Positions 55,627-61,182 of a DNA stretch of 64,000 nt are shown in pieces (the stretch's first letter is position 1; the number at the start of each line of letters is the position of its first letter). Position numbers and translations under genes: made by a program. The DNA comes from Pedobacter boryungensis. GTDB lineage: Bacteria > Bacteroidota > Bacteroidia > Sphingobacteriales > Sphingobacteriaceae. The notes beneath the pieces were generated by a model. That model made no database searches. It was not told where the DNA came from and was given only the letters and a program-made list of their open reading frames with translations. The stretch is taken from contig NZ_JABMKV010000001.1 of assembly GCF_013204825.1 (NCBI RefSeq), positions 744,001 through 808,000 on the forward strand. The letters are read 5' to 3'.

Positions 55627-55935
55627 ATGGTTTCAGTAAAAGTAAGCTATACAGTAAAACAAGAATTCCTAGCTCAAAACAAGCAAAATATCAATGTATT
55701 TCTTGCGGATTTTAAAAAGCTAGTAGACAAAAATTTCTTGTACAATGTTTATCTTGAAGAAGATGGCTTAACTTTTTTACATATTTCTATGTATGAAAAC
55801 GAAGAGGTACAGCATCAAATTCTAAATGTGCCCTCATTTCTTCAGTTTCAAAAGGAGAGAGATGATAGCGGTTTGGAGAATACGCCAAAAGTTGAAATTC
55901 TGACTTCAATAGGTTCGTCACTTCGTATACTGTAA
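55627..55935 (+). CDS. Small protein, possibly a dimeric alpha-beta barrel
   Basis: The 102-residue product has the strand-helix-strand-strand order of the antibiotic-biosynthesis-monooxygenase/ferredoxin-like dimeric barrel: VSVKVSYTVKQEF (strand), NINVFLADFKKLVDK (helix), YNVYLEEDGLTFLHISMYEN (two strands), and VQHQILNVPSFLQFQKERDD (helix). No catalytic residues can be pointed out. No export signal. It stands alone with a 135-base leader after the H1 terminator. Fold assignment is tentative. Confidence 0.65.
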   Translation: MVSVKVSYTVKQEFLAQNKQNINVFLADFKKLVDKNFLYNVYLEEDGLTFLHISMYENEEVQHQILNVPSFLQFQKERDDSGLENTPKVEILTSIGSSLRIL

Positions 55936-56007
55936 TCAATTTAACTAATTTAAAAACAAATAGCCCTACATCTTTGCAAGGCTATTTTATAACTGATCAA
56001 ATTAAAT

Positions 56008-56604
56008 TTATTCAGCACCAACGTTACCCGTTTTAACTTCTCCAGCACGTTTGTAGTTAGCCATAATTACACCCTTTGTGGTCGCATAACTATCTATTAA
56101 TGTAAATGCTGCCGGAATAGGACCATTGCTAAATAAGTTTTTCCCTTTACCAAGTGTCAGTGGGTGAATTTTTAATCGTAGCTCATCTACTAAATCATGT
56201 TCAAGCAATAGCTGGATCAGCTCACTACTTCCCCAAACTTGAATATCAGATCCTGCTGATTTTTTAAGTTTTTTAATATCAGCTACGCCCTTAAGAAAAG
56301 TTGAATTTTTCCAATCTGATTGATCTCTGGTTGTAGATAAAACATATTTATTCCCTTCGTTGATGCTTGGCCAAAAATCTCCATGCGTTGGCCAATAGTT
56401 TTCCCAAATTTCAAATGTTTTTCTACCTAATAAATAATCTGCAGGTTGTAGTTCCTTGCGTATGGCTTCATTGTAAGCTTCATCACCGTATGGTGCAGTC
56501 CAACCACCATATTTAAAACCCCCAGATGTATCTTCTTCCGGACCTCCAGGCCCTTGCAGGACACCATCCAGTGAAATCATCGATAAAACAATTATTTTCC
56601 TCAT
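56008..56604 (-). CDS. Dihydrofolate reductase-like (RibD C-terminal) protein
   Basis: The 198-residue product of the RibD C-terminal/DHFR-fold family (YyaP/YwjB-like) starts MRKIIVLSMISLDGVLQGPG. It contains LLGRKTFEIWENYWP, the NADPH-binding IQVWGSSELIQLLLEHDLVDEL and IHPLTLGKGKNLF. These proteins are predicted NADPH-dependent reductases of unknown substrate. Unusually for this phylum, AGGAG lies 9 bases before the ATG (minus strand, 56,614-56,618), a good Shine-Dalgarno sequence, which may point to acquisition from another lineage. Confidence 0.87.
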   Translation of the reverse strand: MRKIIVLSMISLDGVLQGPGGPEEDTSGGFKYGGWTAPYGDEAYNEAIRKELQPADYLLGRKTFEIWENYWPTHGDFWPSINEGNKYVLSTTRDQSDWKNSTFLKGVADIKKLKKSAGSDIQVWGSSELIQLLLEHDLVDELRLKIHPLTLGKGKNLFSNGPIPAAFTLIDSYATTKGVIMANYKRAGEVKTGNVGAE

Positions 56605-57198
56605 GTCTTTTATCTCCTATACTAACTTATGTTTAAAAATAACACAATGTGCTTTGTATGAAACAAATATCGATAACAAAGACTGGTCTTTGAAGTATGA
56701 ATGCGACAATTCTAATGGCTAATTACGGTAAGATCAATAGTTATTCCCTAGACACATTGGTTTAAACAATAATGCCTAACATTCTGTTAACTTTCATGGT
56801 TGAGGAAAGCACCTGATTAGGATACGTTCCAATATTCCTATGACGAATAAAGAATAATCATGTATTGCCAGTCCAAGAAACACTATACAATAATACAACA
56901 GGGAGAGGATGCTATTAAGAATGAAGTTGCTATTCCCATATACGGGAGGATAATTATAAAGTAGCATAGGCTCATAAAAATACGTGATAACTAGTTATAT
57001 CTAGTAGTTCACAATTTGGTCTGCAAACTTCGGTTAGTGGATTTAATGTCTACCTTATCACCAAATCATACATTAAAGTTTTGTGAAGTCATCATTAGTG
57101 GTTTTAACCACACTTTTACAAATGGTATAAATTATTGGAGCCAATACATTTTATCTCGCATACAAATTCCGTAAATTAGCATTAAATGCTCTATTAAT
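56605..57198. other. 594-base gene-free region with several palindromes upstream of the large nuclease-like gene
   Basis: No frame longer than about 35 codons looks coding. Three palindromes stand out. One is CAAAGAC-TG-GTCTTTG at 56,677-56,692. The second is ATAACTAGTTAT at 56,987-56,998, within a larger imperfect hairpin gtgataactag...ctagtagttcac at 56,986-57,012. The third is GTGGTT-TT-AACCAC at 57,098-57,111. They could be operators, a structured leader, or the relic of a deleted or inserted element. No tRNA fragment or long direct repeat was found here. Confidence 0.55.
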
Positions 57199-60100
57199 AT
57201 GCGACTGATACAAAGAGCCCAAATAGAAAATTGGGCTGATACCGTTAACTCAAAAGCAGACCTTCCTGTCCTGATCTCAAGGCTAGTGCGAGGTTCAATG
57301 CCAGTAAATACGAAAACATTTTTTCCGGCGGGAACAGCCGCCTATGTCCGTGGATATGATGGTATTGTCGATTCAGATGTTGATTACAGGTATGTGCCGA
57401 TTGGAATATCTTTGTGGGAATTTGGTACTGAAAAAAATGTTAAAAAGAAAGCCAATGAGGATTATGAAAAACGAACCTTAAATCCAGAAGGACATGTTCC
57501 ATCTGAGAGGATACTGATTTTCCTGACGCCAAGATTCTGGCAGGATAAGGATAAATGGCGCACCGAAAAGCTGATGGAGGGTGTTTGGAAAGATATTCGG
57601 GCATATGATTGCCGAGATATTGAAGAGTGGCTAGATGAGACACCTGCAGTTAGCCGTTGGTTTGCAGCTGAGACAAATGTATTGCCATTCGATGGTGTAA
57701 TTACTGTTGAGGAATTTTGGAGAGAATTTGCACATGGTAGACCTGGTCAGTTCCCTCCATCTATCCTCACAGGAGGAAGAGAGTATGAATTAGAGCAGCT
57801 ATCTAATTTTCTCGCCGCGGAACCCGACATCCATGCAGTTAGGGCGGCTTCAAAAGAGGAAGCAACTGCTTTTATCATTGCGTGCGCAAAACAATTTGAT
57901 GAATCAGCACAAACTTCATTTATATCAAAAAGTTTGGTCATAGAAACAGATACAAATTTTAGAAGCCTTCAGATTAATAGCAGGAATCTTAATATGATTG
58001 CAAAGTTCGATAAGCTTAACATACTTTTTCCTGCGGTTGAAAAGGGACATCACGTTCTAGTTCCACTTGGACCAGACGACACTTTCAATCAAAATATAAT
58101 CACACTTCCAGGGCTGGATAGGGAAAAGCAGGTTACTTCGCTAATTTCCATGGGTATTTCTGATGAAGATGCTAGAAGACTTTCTATAGAAGCTGGGCGT
58201 GACATCACTGTACTTCGCAGATTGCTTAAGTTTCCCCAAAGCCGAATTCACTGGCTAGAAGGAAATGTAAAAGAAATCATACCGGCTCTTTTGCTTGGTC
58301 GTTGGTACGACTTTAAACCTGGAGACCGCGAATTGATAGAAATGTTTTCAGGTGAAAGCTATGAAACTTATCACGAGAAACTGAAACGTTGGAGAGATTG
58401 TCCAGAGTCTCCAATCCTTCAAATTGGTAATACTTGGCGGTTGAGATCGCCCTTGGATGCCTGGGCAAATATTGCATCATTTCTCAGCGCAGGAGATTTT
58501 AAAAACCTTAAACAAGCGATAACATTAGCCCTCAGAAAAGGAAATCCATATATTCCGAAAGACGAGAATAACCCCTTTGATATTATTTCAGGATCGGACA
58601 GGCAATATTCGACTTGGGCTAGAGAAGGCCTTTTGCAATCGTTAATATTGATAGGATTCTATGGAAATGGACTCGAGCTTGACGGCATGGATGACCCTCA
58701 GGGCTGGACAGATGAGGTAGTAGGAAGTTTACTTAAGGACGCCGACGCTAATTTATGGATATCTTTAGACAAGGAGCTTCCTTTGATTGCTGAGGCATCT
58801 CCAAGTTGTTTTTTGCACTACGTAAATATATCGCTCAATTCCTCAGAGAATACTCTTCTACCAATGTTAACAGAAAGGCCTGGAATGCTAACACCAAGTG
58901 CCTATCATACGGGTATGCTTTGGGCAATGGAGGCATTGGCTTGGATACCAGAATATCTTGAAGATGCCACCATATTACTTGCAAGATTAGCGAAGTTAGA
59001 CCCTGGTATAAAAATAGTAAATAATCCAATTAATTCCTTGCTGGAAATATACAAGTCTTGGCACCATCAGACACTTGCAAGCCTAGACCAGCGCATAGCC
59101 GTTTTGCGATCCTTAATTGAAGAGGACAATGATTTAGCTTGGAAAGTGCTGTTTTCAATGTTGCACACAGACCGCGGAACAGCTCATCCTACCCACAGAC
59201 CTAGATGGCGCCTTTTCAGCACACCAGTAAATACGGAGGTTACCCATAGAGAGTATTGGAGTATTGGTGACCAAGTGATCGATTTATTATTGTCTATAGT
59301 GGCAAATGATGCAGAAAGAATAGCTGCACTGTTGAATCGTTCAACAGTATTAACCATTAAACAGCGAAATAAGATTCTTGCTCTTGCAGAGCAAAATGCA
59401 GATAACATCAAAGAAGGAAAGGATAAGGTTTGGTCAACGCTCCGCAAAATCCTTTCAGATAGCAGATCCTATCCAGATGCAGATTGGTCGGTTCCAGAGG
59501 AACTTCTCTCTCCATATATTGACCTTTATAAACGTTACGAACCTGTAGATCCTATCGAAAAAATAAGATGGGTATTTGATGACCATTGGCCAAATTTTCC
59601 TGAAGGCGGAAGCATCAGAGGTCGTAATGGCCGAGATCATCATGGTAAAAAAGTTGCGGCAGCAAGAATGGAAGGGATTCGAATCATACTCAAAAATGGA
59701 GGAATTGAAAAAGTATTAATGTTAGCAAAAGAGGTTAAGGAACCGTGGATATTAGGTGAGGCTTTAGCCAAAGTGAAAAACCCTATACAATATACAGATG
59801 AGGTGTATCCTTTATTAGATGGCCAGCAAGGAGAGATAAGTTTGGCTCAAACATATTTCAAAAGCCTATATTTCTCTCAGGATGTAGCATGGGTAGATTC
59901 TGTTTACAGGAAACTAGCGGAGAGTGATTTGTCTATCCATGCCATCAATCGGTTCTTTCTCTCGCTTCATCCAACGAGAGAAATTTGGAGATATCTGGAA
60001 GATATTGATACGGAGATAACAACATTATATTGGAAAGAAGTAAATACGATGCTATTTTGGATGGAAAAAGATGATATAGATTTTGTCTTGGACAATTTAG

Positions 60101-60981
60101 AAAAGTACAACAGGCATTTCTCTGCTATAGATATGGCTGCACACATCTCGGAAGAACAACAGCTAAGTTCCGAAAAGATATTGAACTTACTGATGAATGC
60201 CGTTACTAGACCCACAGATGAAAACCGGAATTTTCCAAGCTATCAGGCTGGAGTCCTTTTCAAACTGCTTGACGAAAGGAGAAATTTAGATGATTCAACG
60301 ATGATTAGATTAGAATATCTATATCTATCACTGTTGGATGGACATAGAATTCATCGGTATCCTAAGTATCTACATGCGGAGTTAGCTAAAAATCCTGAAT
60401 TTTTTATTGAGGTAATCAAATGGGCCTATCTGCCAAAAAATAGGGAGCTTGTTGATAAAGAGCGGAATGACCTTTCAGATGAACAGTTAGTTCATCGAGG
60501 TCAACAAGCCTATAAGTTGCTTAATTCGATGAAAAAATTACCTGGAATCGAAGATAAGAAGGGAATAAATGAGTCATTTTTAAAAAACTGGGTCGAGCAA
60601 TCCAGGGCATTAGCCGCTGCTGCAGATCGAACCGAGGTCACTGATAGCTTTATTGGTAAGCTCCTAGCGCAATATCCGGAGGATGGAACAGATAATTGGC
60701 CAGCTGAGGTTATTTCAGAAGTCATTGAGGCTGTTGGCACTAAAGATATGCTCTCTGCATTTTCTACAGCTCTCTTCAATAAAAGAGGTTCTTCTATTAG
60801 AGGTGCCTTCGCTGGCGGTGATATTGAAAGGGCGCATGCAATCTATTTTGAAAAGCTTGTAAAAAAACATAGGCTCAAATATCCCAAGATGTCAAGCATT
60901 TATTCTGGCCTTGCTAAAAACTATAGGGCTTCAGCTAAGGAAATGGATGATAGAGCAGAAAGAGATAAATTAGATTATTGA
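57199..60981 (+). CDS. Large uncharacterised protein: PD-(D/E)XK nuclease-like domain, degenerate STAND-like region, helical C-terminus
   Basis: The 1260-residue, single-gene unit. Residues about 1-160 look like a restriction-endonuclease-fold domain: FPAG, then Y-D54-G, W-E74-F-G with K79 and K82-84, then ANEDYEKRT, LIFLTPRFWQDKDKWRTEK and VWKDIRAYDCRDIEEWLDET. Residues about 185-350 (GGREYELEQLSNFL, HHVLVPLGPDD, GISDEDARRL...LRRLLKF) follow the order of a STAND/AAA+ NTPase with lid, but there is no Walker A (GxxxxGK[ST]). The remaining 900 residues are helical and Trp-rich, like repeat scaffolds. This architecture resembles defence proteins of the Avs/Mrr-STAND type, but no function is proven. 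Flanked by a gene-free region and tRNA-Lys; GC looks somewhat higher than neighbours. Confidence 0.7.
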   Translation: MRLIQRAQIENWADTVNSKADLPVLISRLVRGSMPVNTKTFFPAGTAAYVRGYDGIVDSDVDYRYVPIGISLWEFGTEKNVKKKANEDYEKRTLNPEGHVPSERILIFLTPRFWQDKDKWRTEKLMEGVWKDIRAYDCRDIEEWLDETPAVSRWFAAETNVLPFDGVITVEEFWREFAHGRPGQFPPSILTGGREYELEQLSNFLAAEPDIHAVRAASKEEATAFIIACAKQFDESAQTSFISKSLVIETDTNFRSLQINSRNLNMIAKFDKLNILFPAVEKGHHVLVPLGPDDTFNQNIITLPGLDREKQVTSLISMGISDEDARRLSIEAGRDITVLRRLLKFPQSRIHWLEGNVKEIIPALLLGRWYDFKPGDRELIEMFSGESYETYHEKLKRWRDCPESPILQIGNTWRLRSPLDAWANIASFLSAGDFKNLKQAITLALRKGNPYIPKDENNPFDIISGSDRQYSTWAREGLLQSLILIGFYGNGLELDGMDDPQGWTDEVVGSLLKDADANLWISLDKELPLIAEASPSCFLHYVNISLNSSENTLLPMLTERPGMLTPSAYHTGMLWAMEALAWIPEYLEDATILLARLAKLDPGIKIVNNPINSLLEIYKSWHHQTLASLDQRIAVLRSLIEEDNDLAWKVLFSMLHTDRGTAHPTHRPRWRLFSTPVNTEVTHREYWSIGDQVIDLLLSIVANDAERIAALLNRSTVLTIKQRNKILALAEQNADNIKEGKDKVWSTLRKILSDSRSYPDADWSVPEELLSPYIDLYKRYEPVDPIEKIRWVFDDHWPNFPEGGSIRGRNGRDHHGKKVAAARMEGIRIILKNGGIEKVLMLAKEVKEPWILGEALAKVKNPIQYTDEVYPLLDGQQGEISLAQTYFKSLYFSQDVAWVDSVYRKLAESDLSIHAINRFFLSLHPTREIWRYLEDIDTEITTLYWKEVNTMLFWMEKDDIDFVLDNLEKYNRHFSAIDMAAHISEEQQLSSEKILNLLMNAVTRPTDENRNFPSYQAGVLFKLLDERRNLDDSTMIRLEYLYLSLLDGHRIHRYPKYLHAELAKNPEFFIEVIKWAYLPKNRELVDKERNDLSDEQLVHRGQQAYKLLNSMKKLPGIEDKKGINESFLKNWVEQSRALAAAADRTEVTDSFIGKLLAQYPEDGTDNWPAEVISEVIEAVGTKDMLSAFSTALFNKRGSSIRGAFAGGDIERAHAIYFEKLVKKHRLKYPKMSSIYSGLAKNYRASAKEMDDRAERDKLDY

Positions 60982-61070
60982 TAGTTTTGAGCATAATCAT
61001 ATGCTCCTTTTTTAAAACCCTTATGACATATGTAATAACGGATATGTTATCATAGGTATTCCCTAAAAAC

Positions 61071-61105
61071 AAAAACCCTGCTAATCTTTCGATTGCAGGG
61101 TTTTG
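61071..61105. terminator. Bidirectional terminator between the large gene and tRNA-Lys
   Basis: AAAACCCTGC (61,072-61,081) and GCAGGGTTTT (61,095-61,104) form a perfect 10-base stem with a 13-base loop, with A-rich sequence before and T-rich after. It can end transcripts from the nuclease-like gene on the plus strand and from tRNA-Lys on the minus strand. Confidence 0.85.
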
Positions 61106-61109
61106 TTTG

Positions 61110-61182
61110 TGATCCCGCTGGGATTCGAACCCAGGACCACTACATTAAAAGTGTAATGCTCTACCAGCTGAGCTACGGAATC
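61110..61182 (-). tRNA. tRNA-Lys (anticodon UUU)
   Basis: A 73-base cloverleaf on the minus strand. Acceptor GATTCCG pairs with CGGGATC; the D-arm is GCTC-AGCTGGTA-GAGC; the anticodon stem TTACA/TGTAG encloses the loop CTTTTAA with anticodon TTT; the T-loop is TTCGAAT within TGGG/CCCA. The discriminator base is A, and CCA is not encoded. UUU-anticodon tRNA-Lys is a target of MnmA, encoded at 45.0 kb. Its 3' end faces the nuclease-like gene, the orientation expected if an element used the tRNA 3' end for integration, but no att duplicate was found. Confidence 0.96.

Follow-up and report, generated by a model that had tools for sequence, protein, structure and literature searches.

We analysed a stretch of 64,000 nucleotides from the Pedobacter boryungensis genome (contig NZ_JABMKV010000001.1, positions 744,001 to 808,000 of the forward strand; hereafter the window) and found that the gene at window positions 57199..60981 (+) encodes a 1260-residue protein of the phrog_18693 family, which lacks a P-loop and resembles Avs and PD-Lambda-4 proteins. 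As judged from profile comparison, the family is a distant relative of PADLOC PD-Lambda-4_A in which Walker A and Walker B have been lost and the catalytic lysine has moved or been lost. We read the gene as a horizontally acquired one-gene antiphage sensor-effector on the Avs/PD-Lambda-4_A plan, without nucleotide binding, and give this reading a probability of roughly 0.7. A function in antiphage defence is, by itself, likely. The reading builds on homology, predicted architecture, conserved residues, the absence of a P-loop, a patchy distribution and placement on mobile elements. The preliminary description of this locus had taken it for a candidate uncharacterised defence system, and the kinship with PD-Lambda-4_A qualifies that claim.

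The open reading frame (ORF) begins with ATG, and the same methionine begins the homologues. Searched alone, the window protein matched no entry of Pfam or NCBIfam and gave nothing convincing among PDB sequences. In PHROGs, phrog_18693 is the same family (E 2.3e-169, residues 1-1257 of 1260); this full-length identity of family brings a cluster name only, which carries no function. With PADLOC, the window protein showed only a weak match to PD-Lambda-4_A (residues 570-662, E 0.0016) and no full-length match to that model, and a weak match of this kind was present in 11 of 25 family members. A tblastn search of plasmids returned 22 records from Bacteroidota, Pseudomonadota and Actinomycetota, 18 of them with at least 80% query coverage; 11 of the plasmid records were conjugative plasmids. 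Full-length members were also detected on putative prophage contigs by virus-contig scans. The scans with single relatives returned no members, nor did a scan with the close-clade alignment A4, and most matches of the scan with the A5 alignment were to helix-turn-helix (HTH) domains alone and were set aside. Residue conservation was counted in a full-length alignment of 25 members and in a partly overlapping set of 12 sequences, mostly members from virus contigs. Both sets contain the window protein and the L001 protein, and together they hold about 35 different proteins.

The relation to PD-Lambda-4_A was established by profile comparison. The N-domain profile found one further gene, P0002, which matched PADLOC PD-Lambda-4_A (PDLC03991) at 1.7e-74 and has a layout that begins with an HTH, followed by GGEDGR...FQLK, by GLSGIGKS and VVVDDC, and finally by helices. 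P0002 was aligned with six plasmid relatives (alignment A3, n = 7), and both the Q-x-K and the P-loop are kept in 7/7. When the window family was compared with these seven proteins by hhalign, the two were collinear over 1044 columns (Prob 99.8, E 1e-28), while the N-domain alone matched the PD-Lambda-4_A alignment with Prob 96.6 and E 6e-10. As a control, a comparison with the profile of an Upx relative, which is also a large protein, gave Prob 0.1 and E 0.67. We therefore conclude from the collinear alignment that the window family is akin to PD-Lambda-4_A, with loss of the Walker motifs. The link is visible by profile comparison only, and BLASTP of P0001 against P0002 gave almost nothing. 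A search for PDLC03991 in the relatives found no match, but the controls were also without a match, and this search is uninformative on absence. The two families have in common a collinear N-domain, an NTPase core and a helical C-terminus, with an N-terminal HTH in some members of each. They differ in that the PD-Lambda-4_A relatives keep Q-x-K and Walker A, whereas the window family has E-x-G with K84 and no Walker A. PD-Lambda-4 is one of 21 systems that came out of a phage selection, and each candidate of that selection was confirmed to lower plating (Vassallo et al. 2022, PMC9519451), and it is listed with a P-loop NTPase in a review table (PMC10952713); the tie to that screen rests on the PADLOC name and the review table, the name being absent from the main text of the screen.

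Residues 1-160 (57199..57678) form a predicted restriction-endonuclease-like domain, as indicated by an AlphaFold2 model and by the N-domain profile match. In the model of residues 1-375 (12 input sequences, mean predicted local distance difference test score (pLDDT) 85.6), the pLDDT of this block was mostly 84-97, with the exception of residues 41-50. Loci from the whole-genome searches and from plasmids did not enter the structure predictions. The elements follow in the order alpha-beta-beta-beta-alpha-beta (helix 18-33, strands 39-41, 55-59 and 69-75, helix 81-94 and strand 105-109), so that residues 18-109 have the order of a PD-(D/E)XK core. Asp54 (57358..57360), in a G-W/Y-D-G motif, is placed just before strand 55-59, Glu74 (57418..57420) inside strand 69-75, and Lys84 (57448..57450) inside helix 81-94, which follows the third strand. 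These placements bear out the restriction-fold-like N-terminus proposed in the preliminary description. D54, E74, K84 and D88 are invariant in 25/25 members and in 12/12 of the second set, and G55 and W144 are the other invariant positions in the N-terminal part of the 25-member alignment. The acids at strands 2 and 3 are thus the invariant D54 and E74, the putative first and second metal ligands. The window protein has no lysine at the usual E-x-K position, two places past the acid of strand 3. E74-F-G76 aligns with the Q-x-K of PD-Lambda-4_A, E74 falling on its glutamine, and position 76 is glycine in 24/25 members where the PD-Lambda-4_A relatives have lysine; the E-F-G seen earlier in the window protein in place of E-x-K is correct. 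Among the lysines that had been listed with D54 and E74 (K79 and K82-84), K79, K82 and K83 vary among members and drop out, and K84 is therefore the relevant one. Its invariance, eight residues on from the E-x-G, fits the earlier suggestion that the lysine may have migrated, and we regard K84 as the candidate for it. The VIA list contained no dedicated PD-(D/E)XK entry because the NTPase part occupies the list. The N-terminal domain is fairly likely a working nuclease end.

The middle of the protein, residues 164-345 (57688..58233), is an AAA+/STAND-like NTPase core with a lid. By VIA-align, its Z value was about 10 against ClpB/RFC AAA+ modules and 9.1 against the NRC4 resistosome, and the alpha-beta core with lid and winged helix that is expected of a STAND protein was present in the models. 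The Walker A motif GxxxxGK[ST] was found at the aligned place in no member of either set, and the few regular-expression matches fall elsewhere in the chain; VRAASKEEATAFI (residues 214-226, 57838..57876) stands where the PD-Lambda-4_A relatives have the P-loop GLSGxGK[ST]. Walker B (hhhhD[DE]) was not found either. The PD-Lambda-4_A relatives have VVVDDC or LVIDNC where the window protein reads LNMIAKFD, and columns 264-270 hold no conserved acid pair. An NTPase-plus-lid middle without GxxxxGK[ST] had been recognised from the window protein alone, and it holds for the family. The accepted view of STAND immune receptors, whether plant resistosomes or bacterial Avs, is that nucleotide drives the switch. 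Since the P-loop is absent in all relatives examined, switching on may differ here from an ATP-driven switch. On balance, the hub appears to have lost standard nucleotide binding, with nucleotide-free switching about even to likely.

The C-terminal module opens with a winged-helix-like segment at residues 356-415 (58264..58443), assigned by DSSP of the C-terminal model, and continues as a helical-repeat (HEAT/TPR-like) array at residues 416-1260 (58444..60978), the putative sensor. The AlphaFold2 model of residues 356-1260 (mean pLDDT 83.9) has about 45 helices after the winged-helix-like segment, spread over about 850 residues, in agreement with the helical C-terminus described before, and the array resembles HEAT/TPR superhelices in general by Foldseek. 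When residues 1-375 were submitted to Foldseek, the top three PDB chains were Avs4, Avs3 and Avs4 (E 4e-5 to 2e-4), which supports the Avs-type layout proposed earlier. The TM-scores of these matches were low because the Avs chains are far larger and their domains are placed differently, and the likeness is a match of layout, not a close superposition. Effector, STAND core and helical sensor were found in one chain in the models and in Foldseek, in the same order as in Avs4 and Avs3 (PDB 8dgf, 8dgc). In contrast, no PADLOC Avs model matched the window protein at E up to 10, and Avs proteins use an ATP-dependent STAND switch, as described for Avs2 (PMC12724215). That the protein works like Avs or PD-Lambda-4 is better supported than that it is a member of either, because two defining STAND motifs are absent.

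The gene looks patchy and acquired. Whole-genome searches found it in 14/395 genomes of the phylum and in 3/145 of the genus, the three being the genome of the window, one with a 25% identical copy and one with an 80-residue remnant containing stops. Its GC content (0.405) and its GC content at third codon positions (GC3, 0.336) are the highest of the 36 ORFs in the window, the other GC3 values being 0.159-0.285. In the relative G470, a conserved block ends in a 102-residue ORF and is followed by 1.2 kb and then by the same tRNA-Lys; neither the window gene nor its DHFR-like neighbour is present in this interval. The homologues are thus not syntenic housekeeping genes, as the preliminary description had allowed they might be. 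One pair, 82% identical and with synonymous sites near saturation, gave a ratio of non-synonymous to synonymous substitution (dN/dS) of 0.08 for the whole gene and 0.04 for the N-domain, and in this pair the gene is under strong purifying selection.

Relatives stand next to defence genes. The L070 relative adjoins an SMODS CD-NTase and SIR2, the L071 relative bSEFIR, the L036 relative SIR2 and Abi, and the L033 relative a gene with an SduA (Shedu) domain. AbiEi/AbiEii lie beside the relatives L034 and L076, type I restriction-modification genes beside L035, and Abi and SieB beside L031, while the L075 relative adjoins a C5 methyltransferase and the L072 relative adjoins Upx and a DrmC-like PLD protein. 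At L072 (11250-15128), beside the distant copy in G531, a second genome of the genus, the large Upx-like protein overlaps the end of the copy and is accompanied by the DrmC-like PLD gene, in an apparent defence island. On plasmids of Rhizobium gallicum and R. leguminosarum, a family member is directly upstream of a PD-Lambda-4_A relative. These are same-strand tandems (L076 8725-16685 and L077 8665-16692) in which the downstream relative bears the P-loop, suggesting a possible pair of sensor and helper.

We propose that the helical array of the C-terminus binds a protein encoded by the phage, and that this binding would free or oligomerise the molecule via the NTPase-like/winged-helix hub. The N-domain would then cut DNA, with D54 and E74 holding the metal and K84 substituting for the usual lysine of E-x-K. 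Because Walker A is absent throughout the family, the hub may act as a scaffold without standard nucleotide binding. The sensor role of the arm is putative, and is assigned by analogy with Avs and because the arm is swapped among effectors. Several points weigh against this proposal. In the profile alignment, the family shares only about 12% sequence identity with PD-Lambda-4_A, and the gene is alone at its own locus, with ordinary neighbours and outside any defence island in the Pedobacter boryungensis genome. The record of defence neighbours is a plain list, raw rather than compared with a background rate. Defence, nuclease activity, a phage trigger and oligomerisation are steps that we infer, and an E-x-G core with a helical lysine could mean a restriction-fold domain that binds without cutting.

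This last point leads to an explanation that we consider unlikely, namely that the N-domain binds DNA or RNA but is catalytically dead, and that the protein acts by binding or partners another effector such as the PD-Lambda-4_A relative of the two Rhizobium plasmids. The glycine at position 76, in place of the usual catalytic lysine, and the tandems on those plasmids speak for it. However, D54, E74, K84 and D88 are invariant across members down to 24% identity, no part of the protein has a lower dN/dS than the N-domain in the only pair that could be measured, and a PD-Lambda-4_A relative was not found in the genome of the window (by a search without positive control). A role as a regulator of mobile elements, not as an antiphage effector, is improbable. 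Ten of the 25 members do carry an N-terminal HTH_3/HTH_31, and plasmid relatives are annotated as transcriptional regulators with a Cro/C1- or HigA-like HTH, but the window protein and its close relatives have no HTH; moreover, a similar HTH occurs on a PD-Lambda-4_A relative, so that it may serve autoregulation. Hardly any weight is left for a housekeeping or metabolic role in the genus, for which nothing can be cited except that conserved genes and a tRNA lie next to the gene. A close match exists in 1/145 genus genomes (that of the window itself), in addition to the distant copy and the remnant, and the gene is absent from the equivalent interval of G470 and atypical in composition.

Apart from the antiphage sensor-effector reading of the window gene, the helical arm occurs as a portable module. 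Residues 363-1260 are common to proteins with other N-termini, as indicated by homology to the L041 and L048 proteins. In L041, L031 and L017 the N-terminus starts with NPFSTGGGG and carries a D...QxK-like pattern; it is recognised by neither Pfam nor PADLOC, and is possibly a second restriction-like effector. The proteins of this type at L041 (9113-12661) and L031 (7089-10652) have about 1180 residues. The type is whole in 7/5426 E. coli genomes, and adjoins prophage genes in the one examined. In L032, L046 and L048, an arm protein of about 930 residues is directly behind a 106-residue HetE-N gene (NCBIfam antiphage_GapS6a), at L048 6980-10098, L032 7564-10658 and L046 9675-12808. In E. coli, P2-like prophages carry this type in the interval from ogr to gene D.

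The GAPS6 system (NF047935 GapS6a and NF047936 GapS6b), whose antiphage role we assume from the NCBIfam name, is similar in that gapS6a is directly before the arm protein in P2-like E. coli prophages and on a Buttiauxella plasmid. It differs in that the large arm protein there gives no match to the GapS6b model, and in that the window gene is not accompanied by gapS6a. The pairing of gapS6a with GapS6b was not found; only arm relatives pair with gapS6a. The gapS6a gene and the arm protein of about 930 residues may represent a GAPS6-like variant, as yet without a name, that occurs in P2-like prophages.

The arm would accordingly be shared by three candidate effectors: the restriction fold with a migrated lysine, the D...QxK-like N-terminus and the separate HetE-N/GapS6a protein. 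A broader proposal, which we advance tentatively and at slightly less than even odds, is a nucleotide-independent STAND-type receptor family, widespread on mobile elements, in which a helical sensor is joined to at least three effectors and which on some plasmids stands in tandem with a P-loop PD-Lambda-4_A relative. A shared sensor ties together PD-Lambda-4, GapS6a systems and phrog_18693, which all carry names of their own. A conserved family under selection that keeps the fold but is without a P-loop everywhere would offer a natural test of whether the coupling of sensing to killing requires nucleotide. Tools for defence annotation now miss the window family and would gain from its addition.

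At the locus itself, 56605-57198 contains no ORF of at least 60 residues, and a tRNA-Lys(TTT), identified by ARAGORN at 61109..61182 (-), borders the variable site that was recognised from the relative without the gene. The single large gene between a gene-free stretch and tRNA-Lys is thus as first described. It is a lone gene in the window, but some relatives belong to defence islands or form a tandem with a PD-Lambda-4_A gene. The stretch from the 102-residue ORF to the tRNA-Lys (55935-61182) is 5.2 kb here, 1.2 kb in G470 and about 7 kb with other genes in G486, and is likely an insertion hotspot. Immediately past the tRNA-Lys, the next block also differs among relatives. At L075 (6795-11860), a 402-residue N-terminal partial copy is directly before a full-length member, as a tandem duplication or a decaying second copy.

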